This document shows positions 27,679 to 38,442 of a stretch of 64,000 nt of DNA, piece by piece (within the stretch, counting starts at the first letter, position 1; the number at the start of each line of letters is the position of its first letter). The stretch spans positions 2,886,001-2,950,000 of the forward strand of contig NZ_CP132910.1 in NCBI RefSeq assembly GCF_030846775.1. The letters are read 5' to 3'. Under the pieces are notes generated by a model. That model was not told the DNA's origin and did not search any database. It saw nothing but the letters and a program-made list of their open reading frames with translations. The DNA comes from Geothrix sp. 21YS21S-2 (GTDB lineage Bacteria > Acidobacteriota > Holophagae > Holophagales > Holophagaceae). Both the position numbers and the translations under genes were made by a program.

Positions 27679-28050
27679 ATGGATGCGCCCCGCCCCGCCC
27701 CGCCCAGATCCCTGCATTTCGAGGCCGCCGTGGAACGCCCCCTGTCGGTGGTGTACCGCGGGGAGGACGGGACCTGGGAGGGCCACGACTACCGGGTGGA
27801 GGTGATCGCCGCCCGCGAGGGCCTGGACGGCTTCGACGTGGTGGTGGACTTCCGGGACCTGGAGGCCGCCCTGGACGCCCTCCTGGAGCCCCTGCGGGGA
27901 CGCCTCCTGGGCGAACTGGGGCTCCAGGGCCCCATGGACCTGGTCCGCCTGCTGGCCGCGGAACTGGCCTTGAAGGTTCCCCCTCCCGCCCGCCTGACCG
28001 AGGTTGCCCTCACCGACGGCCAGGGACGGCGGCTGGCCTACCGGCCTTGA
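27679..28050 (+). CDS. QueD/6-pyruvoyl-tetrahydropterin synthase-like protein lacking zinc ligands
   Basis: A 123-residue protein with the T-fold pattern of 6-carboxy-tetrahydropterin synthase: LHFEAAVERPL, GHDYRVEVIA and FDVVVDFRDLEAALDALLEPL. In active enzymes the first motif has a His (FSAAH) and the second is HGHNY; here these read FEAAV and EGHDY, leaving one of three zinc-binding histidines, and the catalytic Cys region is missing. It is probably not a working QueD and may bind a pterin or serve a structural role. It overlaps the lepB start. Confidence 0.6.
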   Translation: MDAPRPAPPRSLHFEAAVERPLSVVYRGEDGTWEGHDYRVEVIAAREGLDGFDVVVDFRDLEAALDALLEPLRGRLLGELGLQGPMDLVRLLAAELALKVPPPARLTEVALTDGQGRRLAYRP

Positions 28051-28484
28051 TCTCCCCGCGGCTCCTGGCGGCTGCCCTGGCCCTGGGCCTGGCCCCCCTG
28101 GCCGTGGTGCACCCCGTGCGCATCTCCGGCAGGAGCATGGAACCGGCGCTGCGGGACGGCCAGGTGCGGGTCGCCCTGCGCGCCTGGTGCGCCGGAAGGC
28201 CCGCGGTGGGGGAGGTGTGGCTCGCCAGGGGCCCCTCCGGCACCGTCGTCAAGCGCCTGGTGGCGGGTCCCGGCATGCGGGTGGAGCTCCGCGACGGGGA
28301 GCTGTGGGTGGACGGGCAGTACGTCCCGGAACCCTACGTCGCGGTCACGGAAAGGGCCTCCGGAGGCCCCTGGGAGACGGGCCCCGGCTGGTTCCTCCTG
28401 GGCGACAACCGCCAGGAGAGCCAGGACAGCCGCGCATGGGGGGTCCTGCCGCCCGGGAGCCTCGAGGCCCGCCTGGTGCGCTGA
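28047..28484 (+). CDS. lepB: Signal peptidase I
   Basis: An S26-family membrane protease, 145 residues, which removes signal peptides. One N-terminal membrane segment (LLAAALALGLAPLAVV) is followed by SGRSMEPAL with catalytic S30, the lysine K69 in VVKRLVAGPG, and GDNRQESQDSRAWG. It is shorter than E. coli LepB and closer to compact Gram-positive-like forms. The TTG start overlaps the previous stop (TTGA), indicating coupling. Confidence 0.88.
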   Translation: MISPRLLAAALALGLAPLAVVHPVRISGRSMEPALRDGQVRVALRAWCAGRPAVGEVWLARGPSGTVVKRLVAGPGMRVELRDGELWVDGQYVPEPYVAVTERASGGPWETGPGWFLLGDNRQESQDSRAWGVLPPGSLEARLVR

Positions 28485-28505: not shown

Positions 28506-29954
28506 TCAGGTCATCAAAGGCACGGCTTCCTGCAGCTCCTCCGGGGTGTAGGCCATGAACCCCAGCCGCGTGGCCGCCGCGGGGCTGCCCGTCAGGTCGA
28601 AGTAGCTGCCCAGCCGCAGTTTGATCCCCTTCAGGCCGCAGGACTTCACCCACAGGTCGAAGCGGGCCGGGTCGGCCAGCTTCCCCTCGCCCCGCAGCCA
28701 CAGGCCCATGCCCTCCTGCGCGGGATCGAAGGCCACCCGCCCGGGCAGGGCGAAGCGCAGCGCGTCGAAGAGGGCCTCCCGGCGGTCCTGGCAGGCCTTG
28801 CGCACGCGGCGCAGGTGGCGGGCCATCTCCCCGTCCAGGAACAGCTCGGACACGGCCCACTCCAGCACCGGATCCCCCTGCCAGTCCATGCGCTGGCGGG
28901 CCCTCGCGAAACTGTCGGCCAGGAGCCGGGGCACCACGATGAAGCCCAGGCGCACCCCGGGGGCGATGAGCCGGGAGAGGCTGCCGCAGTAGAGCACCTG
29001 CCCCGTGGTGTCCTGGGCCGCCAGGGGGCGGATGGGGGCCTCCAGGTAGTCGTATTCCGGGTCCAGTTCCAGGATCGCGAAGCGGTGCTCCCGGGACAGG
29101 GCCAGGATGCGTTCCCGGCGGTCCTGGGCGAGCGCGGCCCCGGTGGGGAAGTGGCACTGGGGCGTGAGCACCAGGAGGCCCAGGCGGGTGACGGCCAGGA
29201 GGGCCTCCAGGGCCTCCACCCGGAGCCCGCCGCCGTCCACGGGCAGGCCGTGGAGCCTCGCCCCCGAGGCCTGGCGAAGGGTGTCCCACACCAGGGGGTT
29301 CCCCGGATTCTCCACCGCCACGTCCCCGTCCCCGTGCCCGATGAGCGCCTGGGCCACCAGGTTGACCGCCATGGAGGTGCTGCGGATGAGCAGGAACTGC
29401 GCGGGGTCCCGCACCAGGGCGCGCTGCTCGGCGAGGTGGTCCGCGAGCACCTTGCGCAGCCGCGCGTGCCCCATGAACTCCGTGGCCTGGAGCAGGGCGG
29501 GCCCCTTGAGGCGCAGGGCCCTGGGGTAGGCCTTGGCCAGGGCCTCCATGGGCGCCAGGCGCGCGTCGGCCACCCCGTCGGAGAAGTCCAGGGTCACGTT
29601 GAGGGTGCTGGTGATGGGCCGCAGCGTTCCGGGCACGTCGAAGCCCGGGACGGCGCTGGAGGCCGCGGAAGGCTCCTGGACAGGGCGCTCGGGGAGCGGG
29701 TCCACCACGAAGAAGCCGCTGCGGGGACGGGCCTCCACCCATCCCTGCTCCTCCAGCTCCCGCAGGGCCGCCAGCACCGTGTTCCGGTGCACGCCGACGC
29801 GGTCCGCCAGTTCCCGGACGCCGGGAAGCGCGTGCCCCGGCCGGATCTGCCCGGCCCGCACCGCCACCAGGATGGCCTCGGCCACGCGCACGTAGATGGG
29901 GCCGGCCAGCGCGGGGTCGAGGGTCAGGTTCAGTTCGTGGGCTCGCAAGGCCAT
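28506..29954 (-). CDS. MocR-type regulator: GntR helix-turn-helix fused to aminotransferase-like domain without PLP lysine
   Basis: A 482-residue protein. Residues ~18-80 are a GntR winged helix (LPGVRELADRVGVHRNTVLA) and ~115-480 a class I aminotransferase fold (TPQCHFPTGAALAQDRR, LELDPEYDYLEAP, APGVRLGFIV). In MocR proteins PLP binds a Lys in the GTFSK motif; here the segment is GSLSRLIAP, with R328 (codon CGG, 28973-28971) at that position. PLP could therefore not form the usual aldimine. It may sense PLP, a PLP adduct or another ligand non-covalently. It is divergent from the lipoprotein gene at 30087. Confidence 0.85.
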   Translation of the reverse strand: MALRAHELNLTLDPALAGPIYVRVAEAILVAVRAGQIRPGHALPGVRELADRVGVHRNTVLAALRELEEQGWVEARPRSGFFVVDPLPERPVQEPSAASSAVPGFDVPGTLRPITSTLNVTLDFSDGVADARLAPMEALAKAYPRALRLKGPALLQATEFMGHARLRKVLADHLAEQRALVRDPAQFLLIRSTSMAVNLVAQALIGHGDGDVAVENPGNPLVWDTLRQASGARLHGLPVDGGGLRVEALEALLAVTRLGLLVLTPQCHFPTGAALAQDRRERILALSREHRFAILELDPEYDYLEAPIRPLAAQDTTGQVLYCGSLSRLIAPGVRLGFIVVPRLLADSFARARQRMDWQGDPVLEWAVSELFLDGEMARHLRRVRKACQDRREALFDALRFALPGRVAFDPAQEGMGLWLRGEGKLADPARFDLWVKSCGLKGIKLRLGSYFDLTGSPAAATRLGFMAYTPEELQEAVPLMT

Positions 29955-30086
29955 CCGTCCGTGGAGGTGTGCCTTGAGTGGACACCAGGCCGGAATCTGG
30001 CACAACCGGGAAATCGGGATGTGTACCTTACCGCTCCCCCCGGGGGACCCGATGCTGGACCTTGCCAGCCTTCCCAGGAGCCGCCC

Positions 30087-36232: not shown

Positions 36233-37015
36233 ATGCGCTACCTCTATTGCCAGGTGAACGAACTGGCCCTGGCCCTCTTCATGATTTCCGCCTTCACCCT
36301 GGCTGCCGTCGGGACCCTGAAGGCCTCCTACCGGTTCCTGCCCGGGCTGCGCTTCGAACCGGGCTCCTCGGATTTCGGCCAGATCTACGGTGGCGCGGTG
36401 GGCTCCATCTTCGCCCTGGTCTTCGCCCTGGTGATCGTCGCCGTGTGGCAGAACTACGACAAGGTGTCCTCGATCGTGGACCAGGAGGCCAACGCCCTGC
36501 ACAACCTCTACCAGAACCTCGAAGGCTACCCTCCGGAGTTCCGGGATCCGATTCGGGCGGAACTGAAGGCCTACGTCCGGCAGGTCATCGACAAGGAGTG
36601 GACGAGGATCACCGACGGGGACCAGGACCCGGAGACCAACCGGATGATCGCCCATCTCGGCCTGGCCTTCACCACCTACAAGCCGGCCGCCCTGGGCGAC
36701 CTGCCCCTGCATCAGCAGCAGCTCCAGCAGCTGGCCCTTTGCCGGAGCCTGCGCCATGACCGCATCGAAGGCGGGGAAACCTACCTGGACGCGTCCATGT
36801 GGATCTCCCTCGGCATGGGAAGCCTCATCCTGCTGGCCTTCTCCTGTCTCCTGAACATGGGCAGCCTGCGCCAGCACCACCTGATGCATGCCACCCTCGG
36901 CGCCAGCCTGGGCCTGGTCTTCTTCCTCCTGCTGGTCTACAACTACCCGTTCCTGGGCCCGGGGGCCATTTCCCCGGCCCCGTTGAGGATGCTTTTGGAG
37001 CGGTTCTGGGTCTAG
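36233..37015 (+). CDS. DUF4239 (bestrophin-like) membrane protein
   Basis: A 260-residue protein with four predicted membrane segments: residues ~10-32, ~52-75, ~190-210 and ~222-245. The signature after helix 2 is VWQNYDKVSSIVDQEANALHNLYQNL, typical of DUF4239 proteins related to bestrophin-like channels. The middle cytoplasmic or periplasmic loop is helical. The function is not established. Its stop overlaps the convergent kinase stop by 4 bp. Confidence 0.75.
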   Translation: MRYLYCQVNELALALFMISAFTLAAVGTLKASYRFLPGLRFEPGSSDFGQIYGGAVGSIFALVFALVIVAVWQNYDKVSSIVDQEANALHNLYQNLEGYPPEFRDPIRAELKAYVRQVIDKEWTRITDGDQDPETNRMIAHLGLAFTTYKPAALGDLPLHQQQLQQLALCRSLRHDRIEGGETYLDASMWISLGMGSLILLAFSCLLNMGSLRQHHLMHATLGASLGLVFFLLLVYNYPFLGPGAISPAPLRMLLERFWV

Positions 37016-38442
37016 AGCGCTTCCCACAGCTTCTGCAGCTGCCCGCCGACGCGTTCCAGGGCCGGTTTGAGGCGCGTCTTCAGCCCGGCCCTTGCGGCCG
37101 CCGGCAGCAGGCCCGCGGCCTCCAGGGCCTGCAGGCGCAGCGGCGCGTTCAGCGCCCCCCAGTCCCGGGCCAGGGCCGCGGCCCAGGCCCCGTCACCCAG
37201 GCGCGCCCTCGGCACCCAGCGCCAGGAGGAGCCCAGGCCCGGTTCGCGCAGGTGCGGCAGGACCAGGTCCGGGAGTCCGGCCCGCTGCGCGATGAGGCTG
37301 GCGGCCTCGGCCCCCTCCCGCTGGGCGAAGGGGTCCCCCAGGAGGGCCAGCAGGGCCGGTATGGCAGCGGGAGTGCCCACGGCGCCCAGTGCGTTGCACA
37401 GGGCGAACCGCATGGCCTCGGGGGCCTGGGCCAGCTCGGCCAGGAGGAAGCCCTCGTCACCGGCGGCCACGGCGTTCTGGAGGCCTTCGGCCGCGGCGCG
37501 GCGGCTGCCCACGCCGCCGGTGCGCAGGCCGTCCAGGTAGGGTCCCAGCCGCGACCCGGGCTCCTCCTCGGCGTGGCGCCGGACCCGGCTCACGGTCTCC
37601 TGCTCCACGTCCTCGACCCGGAACCCGGGCAGGGGCTGGTCGCCCCACCCGGCGCTCTCGGCGCTCTCCAGCCAATCCGCCCACTCCGCGGCCAGGGCCT
37701 CCATGGAGGGGATGCGCCTGGCGGGATCGGGGGCCAGGGACTGCATGAGGATGCGCGCCATGCGGGGCGGGAAGCCCGTGCGCACCAGGGCGGGCGGGAG
37801 CTGCACCTGGCTGTAGGGACGGCCCGTGGTGAACTCGTAGAGGATGGCACCCAGGGCGTACACGTCGCACCGGCCGTCCACGCTCCTGGGATCGCCGTGC
37901 TGCTCCGGCGCCATGTAGCCCAGGGTCCCCACCACCATCTGGCTGCGGGTGACGCGGGTGCCCTCCCCGCCCTCCCACAGGCACACGCCGAAGTCGGTCA
38001 CCTTGAGGTTGCCCAGGGCGTCGAAGAGCAGGTTGGAGGGCTTCAGGTCGCGGTGGATGATCCCCGCCTCGTGGGCCGTGCGCAGGGCGCCGGCCACGGG
38101 CAGGAGGCGGCGCAGGAACCGCGCCGGCGCCTCTCCGTAGCAGCGCTTGACGTCGCCGCCGGGGAGCAGCTCCATGAGGATGAAGGGCGTGCTCCCCGCC
38201 CGGCCGAAGTCGAAGACTTCCACCAGGTTGGGATGGCTGAGGCGCTTGAGGACCTCCCCTTCCCGCAGGAAGCGCACCACCAGCTCCGAGTCGCCGGACG
38301 CCTCGGCCTTGAGGAACTTCACCGCCAGGGCCCGCCCCGGCCGGAAGGGATCCTCGGCCCGGTGCACCACGGCCATGCCGCCCTCCCCCAGGCGCTCCAG
38401 GACCCGGGCTCCGCCGGCGCGCTTGGGCAGGACCAGGCTCAT
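37012..38442 (-). CDS. Ser/Thr protein kinase with HEAT-like C-terminal region
   Basis: A 476-residue Hanks-type kinase. It has the glycine loop LGEGGMAVVHRAED, the Lys in ALAVKFLK, HRDLKPSNLL, VTDFGVCLWEG and GYMAPEQ. After about residue 280 come Ala/Leu-rich repeats (MRFALCNALGAVGTPAAIPA, LLGDPFAQREGAEAA) resembling HEAT repeats. No membrane segment is seen, so it is cytoplasmic. The ATG overlaps the stop of the FHA-GGDEF gene upstream (ATGA). FHA domains bind phosphothreonine, so the two neighbouring FHA proteins are likely partners or substrates. Confidence 0.9.
   Translation of the reverse strand: MSLVLPKRAGGARVLERLGEGGMAVVHRAEDPFRPGRALAVKFLKAEASGDSELVVRFLREGEVLKRLSHPNLVEVFDFGRAGSTPFILMELLPGGDVKRCYGEAPARFLRRLLPVAGALRTAHEAGIIHRDLKPSNLLFDALGNLKVTDFGVCLWEGGEGTRVTRSQMVVGTLGYMAPEQHGDPRSVDGRCDVYALGAILYEFTTGRPYSQVQLPPALVRTGFPPRMARILMQSLAPDPARRIPSMEALAAEWADWLESAESAGWGDQPLPGFRVEDVEQETVSRVRRHAEEEPGSRLGPYLDGLRTGGVGSRRAAAEGLQNAVAAGDEGFLLAELAQAPEAMRFALCNALGAVGTPAAIPALLALLGDPFAQREGAEAASLIAQRAGLPDLVLPHLREPGLGSSWRWVPRARLGDGAWAAALARDWGALNAPLRLQALEAAGLLPAAARAGLKTRLKPALERVGGQLQKLWEAL

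Follow-up and report, generated by a model that had tools for sequence, protein, structure and literature searches.

Regulators of the MocR type act through PLP bound to a Lys residue. In a comparison of 1331 aminotransferase-like domains in six well-populated groups, to which Acidobacteria do not belong, this Lys and an Asp (Lys312 and Asp279 in GabR) are reported to be conserved across all clusters (PMC6677901). The Lys302His variant of EnuR is reported to have lost PLP and to repress constitutively (PMC8739950), and K314A in MpaR is reported to abolish reporter activity (PMC10790758). Direct repeats are reported to be the preferred DNA sites of PdxR in its apo form (PMC5320631). A search of the literature available without subscription found no report of a natural MocR protein that lacks the Lys.

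Here, we consider a regulator with Arg in the place of this Lys. Its gene lies in a window of 64,000 nucleotides from Geothrix sp. 21YS21S-2, i.e., the whole stretch of DNA that was analysed, and the features discussed below are collected in Table 1. The winged helix-turn-helix of the protein is followed by a domain that begins at about residue 120 and matches Aminotran_1_2 (PF00155, E 8.7e-17). An AlphaFold2 model, built from 11 sequences and with a mean pLDDT of 82 that falls to low values over residues 1-6 and the 91-119 linker, has full-length GabR as its best match among solved structures (Foldseek E 9e-35). From these three observations it follows that the regulator is of MocR type by architecture, with an N-terminal GntR winged helix-turn-helix and a C-terminal aminotransferase-like domain of fold type I. 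Its top NCBIfam match is the PdxR model NF052282, with a score of 265.3 bits, short of the 320 bits set as its curated cut-off. The genome of the window carries several paralogues of the regulator, and a second copy of the Arg-type regulator, at G000:C1:2796740-2798155, has 56% identity to it.

Table 1. Features of the regulator locus, with positions counted from the first letter of the window.
Feature	Position	Strand	Remarks
Small PTPS-like gene	27679-28050	+	before the signal-peptidase-like gene
Short signal-peptidase (S26)-like gene	28047-28484	+	tail-to-tail with the regulator gene
MocR-like regulator, Arg-type	28506..29954	-	482 aa, frame open throughout
CGG codon of Arg328, at the GabR Lys312 position	28971..28973	-	three alignments
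Codons of Leu297-Asp298-Pro299, opposite GabR Asp279-Asp280-Tyr281	29058..29066	-	MAFFT, hhalign
Codon of Asn219, at the position of the PLP-stacking Tyr205 of GabR	29298..29300	-	alignment
GntR-type winged helix-turn-helix, residues 21-83	29706..29894	-	PF00392, E 2.5e-17
Candidate operator CTGGCACAACCGGGAAATCGGGATGTGTACCTT	29997..30029	+	CTGTACC-like boxes as a direct repeat, the first of them degenerate
Divergent lipoprotein-like gene, 603 aa	30087..31898	+	DUF4382, sub-threshold DUF5666
Ser/Thr protein kinase gene	37012-37998	-	about 7 kb from the regulator, non-adjacent

The first-pass annotation of the locus, made from the letters alone, had proposed that Arg replaces the Schiff-base Lys, with GSLSR in the place of GTFSK, and had called for an alignment with known MocR proteins. 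The proposal holds, as does the CGG codon that it gave for the residue. Arg328 falls on GabR Lys312 when the protein is aligned with the PDB chain by phmmer, in a MAFFT alignment of 141 rows and in a profile-profile alignment by hhalign, and in none of the three does any Lys of the window protein fall in this column, which rules out both a misalignment and another Lys in the PLP column. In the MAFFT and hhalign alignments, E296-L297-D298-P299 of the regulator are opposite E278-D279-D280-Y281 of GabR, so that the Asp that contacts the pyridine nitrogen is replaced by Leu and the ring-stacking Tyr281 by Pro; phmmer gaps the 279-281 stretch differently, yet does not give an Asp-x-Tyr there either. 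There is also Leu at the position of GabR Arg207 and Tyr at that of Arg430. The Schiff-base Lys, the pyridine-nitrogen Asp and the stacking aromatic of a PLP-dependent MocR protein are thus all absent, while the fold and the residues on the phosphate side (positions 309/311 and R319) are retained. The first-pass annotation described most motifs of the domain as kept, which is correct for the fold and the phosphate side, but not for the residues at positions 279, 281 and 205, whose replacement it had not noted.

When the columns of the PLP residues are excluded, a tree of 141 rows places the window gene in a clade of 16 Arg-bearing genes from 13 assemblies, with support 100. The named members are MAGs labelled Holophagaceae or Holophaga, and two more are labelled Deltaproteobacteria and Bryobacterales. 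Arg is common to all 16 at the Lys312 position, where it is encoded by CGG, CGC, AGG or AGA. At the Asp279 position, there is Leu in 15 and Val in one of them, at the Tyr281 position Pro in ten, Ser in three, Ala in two and Gly in one, and at the Tyr205 position Asn in 11, Asp in three and His in two. Between the window gene and its congeners, the dN/dS ratio is 0.20-0.29, and over all seven close pairs tested it is 0.03-0.29. With Arg in 16 of 16 genes, four codons and these dN/dS values, Arg328 is neither a result of decay nor an isolated mutation, and the earlier view that the intact frame speaks against simple decay is borne out by relatives that conserve both the Arg and the open reading frame. 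The nearest sister group (loci L068-L071), i.e., four sequences from another genus with about 46-47% identity, has Lys, Asp279 and Tyr281.

The Lys is lost in other parts of the family as well. The sample for alignment consisted of 140 distinct, Holophagaceae-centred sequences out of 172 matching frames, from which duplicates and partial sequences that miss the Lys region had been dropped; it includes a few outgroup rows that belong to other families, and leaves out at least eleven matches that are weaker or partial. In 77 of the 140, Lys312 is absent, and its position is taken by Gln (39), Arg (35), Pro (2) or His (1). Most of the Gln sequences belong to one clade, in which Arg319 has likewise become Gln. 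Another clade of 28 sequences, here called KQ28, has kept the Lys, with Asn, Leu or another residue at position 279 and mostly Gln at 281. In total, the tree requires seven changes of state. That the sister group retains Asp279 and Tyr281 as well makes several losses of the Lys seem likelier than a single loss followed by a regain in that group; the branch supports leave room for both. In a sample of 396 genomes of the phylum, five outside Holophagaceae have a match at E<=1e-50, and four of these have Lys (the fifth is L187).

The Gln-type clade has features of its own. It comprises 39 rows (38 with Gln and one with Pro), occurs in many Holophagaceae (e.g., G000:C1:4567975-4569396, i.e., L004, and L129-L174) and combines the change at Lys312 with Glu or Asp at Ser311 and, in 39 of 39 rows, with Gln at Arg319. 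Upstream of its genes, the words CCGTCAAG and CCTTGACG recur.

What the regulator may control is suggested by its neighbours. The product of the divergent gene has an N-terminus that, read from its sequence, resembles a lipoprotein signal, and a relative of this DUF4382 gene adjoins the regulator in 12 of the 16 clade members, divergently in eight, upstream on the same strand in three and convergently in one. In three of the other four members, the upstream region is truncated by a contig end, and L067 has no such gene nearby. A profile search found no DUF4382-type gene beside regulators outside the Arg clade. The DUF4382 lipoprotein gene is, by this association, the probable target of the regulator. 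On its other side, the signal-peptidase-like and PTPS-like genes are syntenic in L052-L054.

The gap of 132 bp between the regulator gene and the lipoprotein gene contains the candidate operator. It is identical at 32 and 28 of its 33 positions to sites in two congeneric loci, where the flanks align poorly. Its first box, CTGGCAC, has three mismatches to the strict pattern, whereas other loci of the Arg clade have a clean direct repeat, CTGTACC...CTGTACCT, with box starts 23 or 24 bp apart. In L076-L080, such a site occupies the gap between the divergent genes; in L058, L059 and L073, it precedes an operon whose last gene is the regulator; in L065-L067, it follows the regulator gene and precedes the one after it; and in L060, a locus left out of the derivation of the motif, it is upstream of the lipoprotein gene. 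Taken together, a candidate operator lies near 15 of the 16 Arg-clade genes, and the sixteenth (L064) is at a contig end. The related DUF4382 paralogues elsewhere in these genomes do not have the operator in those checked (L197-L199).

How specific the pattern is depends on how strictly it is defined. The exact pattern TGTAC[CTG]-N17/18-TGTACC is present in 23 of the 32 loci of the Arg clade, which are overlapping fetches with the pattern at 13 places, and absent from all 157 other loci (1.02 Mb), a contrast to which homologous neighbourhoods contribute much of the evidence. When one mismatch is allowed, there are 11 sites in the Arg-clade loci (139 kb) versus 11 in the other loci (1.02 Mb), and with two mismatches 15 versus 39 over the same lengths. 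Genome-wide, a slightly stricter exact pattern is found at 19 sites where the genome has an Arg-clade gene (10 of 12 such genomes) and at eight sites where it has none (8 of 65; Fisher p 2e-6 for the contrast), and a control with the pattern written backwards matches many genomes of the family, so that patterns of this kind also arise by chance. Repeated boxes, direct or mixed, near the regulator gene are the mark of MocR-type operators, and they are found here by computation; the site is in this sense a predicted operator. For other clades, counts from de novo motif searches give hints only. Three RB15 regulators have repeated TGGTCCG words upstream that are 24 bp apart; the spacing is that of the operator in the window's clade, the word a different one.

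Beyond the adjacent lipoprotein gene, other operator sites precede genes for PKD/GH44, beta-helix and similar proteins, and a second operator in L196 is ahead of an operon for an OmpP1-like protein and a kinase. A few sites are off this theme, e.g., one in L192 that adjoins the gene for the DNA polymerase III alpha subunit. The long operator consensus, with three mismatches allowed, gave no match in the regulator's own genome, the site in the window included, and we therefore claim no wider regulon there. Genome G017 (L190-L193) has seven exact operator-like sites, several of them ahead of genes for large secreted repeat or beta-helix proteins, and these sites could possibly form a larger regulon.

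The reading that we prefer, and think probably correct, is that the regulator is a working DNA-binding protein of MocR architecture for genes of envelope and secreted proteins, which has given up the PLP aldimine. It is the best reading because a natural loss of the PLP site is conserved and paired with a direct-repeat operator, and from the conservation of the protein and of its candidate DNA target the regulator seems still to work. The loss of the PLP residues, the conservation, the operator-like repeat and the gene context are read directly from sequence; the DNA binding, dimerisation, direction of regulation and input are what we infer from them. The aminotransferase-like domain would now serve as a dimerisation and allosteric scaffold, which would keep the two winged helix-turn-helix heads in a form that binds direct repeats. 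A dimer would then sit on two CTGTACC-type boxes 24 bp apart and control the adjacent DUF4382 lipoprotein gene and, in relatives, other genes for envelope or secreted proteins. The input would be something other than PLP with an amino compound. It could be another non-covalent ligand, probably anionic, which Arg328 could hold together with the retained phosphate cup, or, only in those relatives that have a neighbouring kinase, phosphorylation by the adjacent Ser/Thr kinase. A different ligand is also one of the possibilities that the first-pass annotation had raised.

An alternative that we consider possible but doubtful is that the regulator has remained a ligand sensor of the MocR type, in which the pocket still binds PLP, another B6 vitamer or a phosphate-bearing ligand non-covalently and Arg328 pairs with the aldehyde or carboxylate or with the phosphate. 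Fixation of the Arg suggests that this residue has a role, and the phosphate side is mostly kept in the clade (Ser at position 311 in 15 and Arg at 319 in 12 of the 16). The suggestion in the first-pass annotation that PLP is bound without a covalent link has become less likely, since the pyridine Asp279 and the two stacking aromatics, Tyr281 and Tyr205, have been replaced along with the Lys, and the Lys-to-His protein of EnuR is reported to have lost PLP (PMC8739950). It also speaks against this alternative that the genes predicted to be controlled encode surface and secreted proteins and do not belong to B6 or amine metabolism.

A second alternative, to be regarded as rather unlikely, is that the regulator is phosphorylated by a membrane-linked Ser/Thr kinase whose gene is its neighbour, and that this has replaced PLP as the signal. 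Kinases were searched for with an HMM made from neighbouring kinases, with representatives checked with Pfam, and counted as adjacent when their ORF was within 400 bp of the regulator gene (four RB15 loci and L046 were scored on longer stretches). By this count, a kinase adjoins 54 of 105 relatives with a damaged PLP site and is absent beside all 35 that retain both Lys and Asp, numbers that refer to related genes and not to independent events, so that Fisher and binomial values overstate the evidence. A kinase adjoins 8 of the 16 members of the window's Arg clade, always tail-to-tail, and also 15 of 15 in a second Arg clade, 3 of 4 in a third, both members of a Pro/Gln pair, the lone Arg row L046 and 25 of 28 in the KQ28 clade, where Lys is kept in a degenerate site. 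For the second Arg-type copy in the genome of the window, the kinase is at about G000:C1:2795962-2796708. Within 400 bp, none was found in the Gln clade (0/39), the canonical rows (0/22), the sister group (0/4) or the outgroup rows (0/9). The arrangement is tail-to-tail, upstream operonic or downstream operonic, depending on the clade, and these differences speak for a kinase association that arose more than once. In the whole genome of the window, there are just 28 kinase genes (from 29 matches, of which two share a frame), the operon behind the second operator of L196 includes a kinase gene, and in Streptococcus suis, FadR, a regulator of the GntR family, is reported to be phosphorylated by an STK (PMC12463286). 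On the opposite side stand the Gln-type clade, the window gene itself and L009, L053 and L064, its nearest relatives, none of which has an adjacent kinase. A direct kinase partner for the window gene is unsupported, its neighbours being the signal-peptidase-like and DUF4382 genes.

The KQ28 genes (e.g., L090 4425-7388) seem, in 25 of 28 cases, to share an operon with a long gene for a Ser/Thr kinase. A broader proposal, which we make tentatively and would not expect to hold in full, is that Holophagaceae repeatedly made MocR regulators into PLP-independent 'pseudo-aminotransferase' transcription factors, that several lineages rewired them to Ser/Thr kinases so as to control the cell envelope by phosphorylation, and that the loss of the cofactor site is the sign of this switch of input.

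It is very improbable that the Schiff base has been relocated to another Lys: Lys445 (position 424 in the small domain of GabR) is Lys in all 15 clade members that have a residue there, and not in the Lys-bearing sister sequences shown, but phmmer, MAFFT and hhalign all place it off the PLP column, and the loss of the ring-binding residues leaves no obvious site for the ring. That the regulator is a decaying, non-functional duplicate, as the several paralogues in its genome might suggest, or the result of a sequencing error is hardly credible and can be dismissed, because Arg is conserved in 16 genes of 13 assemblies, with four codons and under purifying selection, and because the neighbouring gene and the operator-like repeat are conserved with it.

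If the preferred reading, a working regulator that has given up the PLP aldimine, is true, this natural and conserved lineage without Lys312 and Asp279 means that the MocR fold can regulate without its cofactor. Sister proteins with an intact site, with only the Lys, without the Asp and with a fully dismantled site would then be a ready set for the study of how PLP gained and lost control of DNA binding, and the kinase association would be a concrete candidate for the replacement signal. There would also be a warning in this, in that genes of this kind should not be annotated as PLP-dependent.

Of the described systems, GabR of Bacillus subtilis (PDB 4n0b, 5x03) is like the regulator in the order of its two domains, in the fold of the full-length protein and in the phosphate-side Arg319. 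The identity between the two is about 23%, and Lys312, Asp279, Tyr281, Tyr205, Arg207 and Arg430 of GabR correspond to Arg, Leu, Pro, Asn, Leu and Tyr; the predicted target is a lipoprotein gene, whereas that of GabR is GABA metabolism. PdxR (NF052282; cryo-EM structure 7zla and others) has the same divergent layout of regulator and target, and the direct-repeat boxes of the regulator resemble those that apo-PdxR is reported to favour (PMC5320631). In contrast to PdxR, the regulator scores below the cut-off of its model, has a dismantled PLP site and has no recognised B6 gene alongside. The Lys302His variant of EnuR is, like the regulator, a MocR protein without the PLP lysine, and is reported to be still a dimer and a constitutive repressor (PMC8739950); it is laboratory-made and, by that report, non-inducible, whereas the loss of Lys in the regulator is natural and conserved across species. 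The STK-FadR pair of S. suis, in which a regulator of the GntR superfamily is reported to be under a Ser/Thr kinase, is a precedent for kinase input (PMC12463286), with the difference that this regulator is of the FadR subfamily and ours a MocR protein, whose possible link to a kinase comes from the gene neighbourhoods of its relatives.
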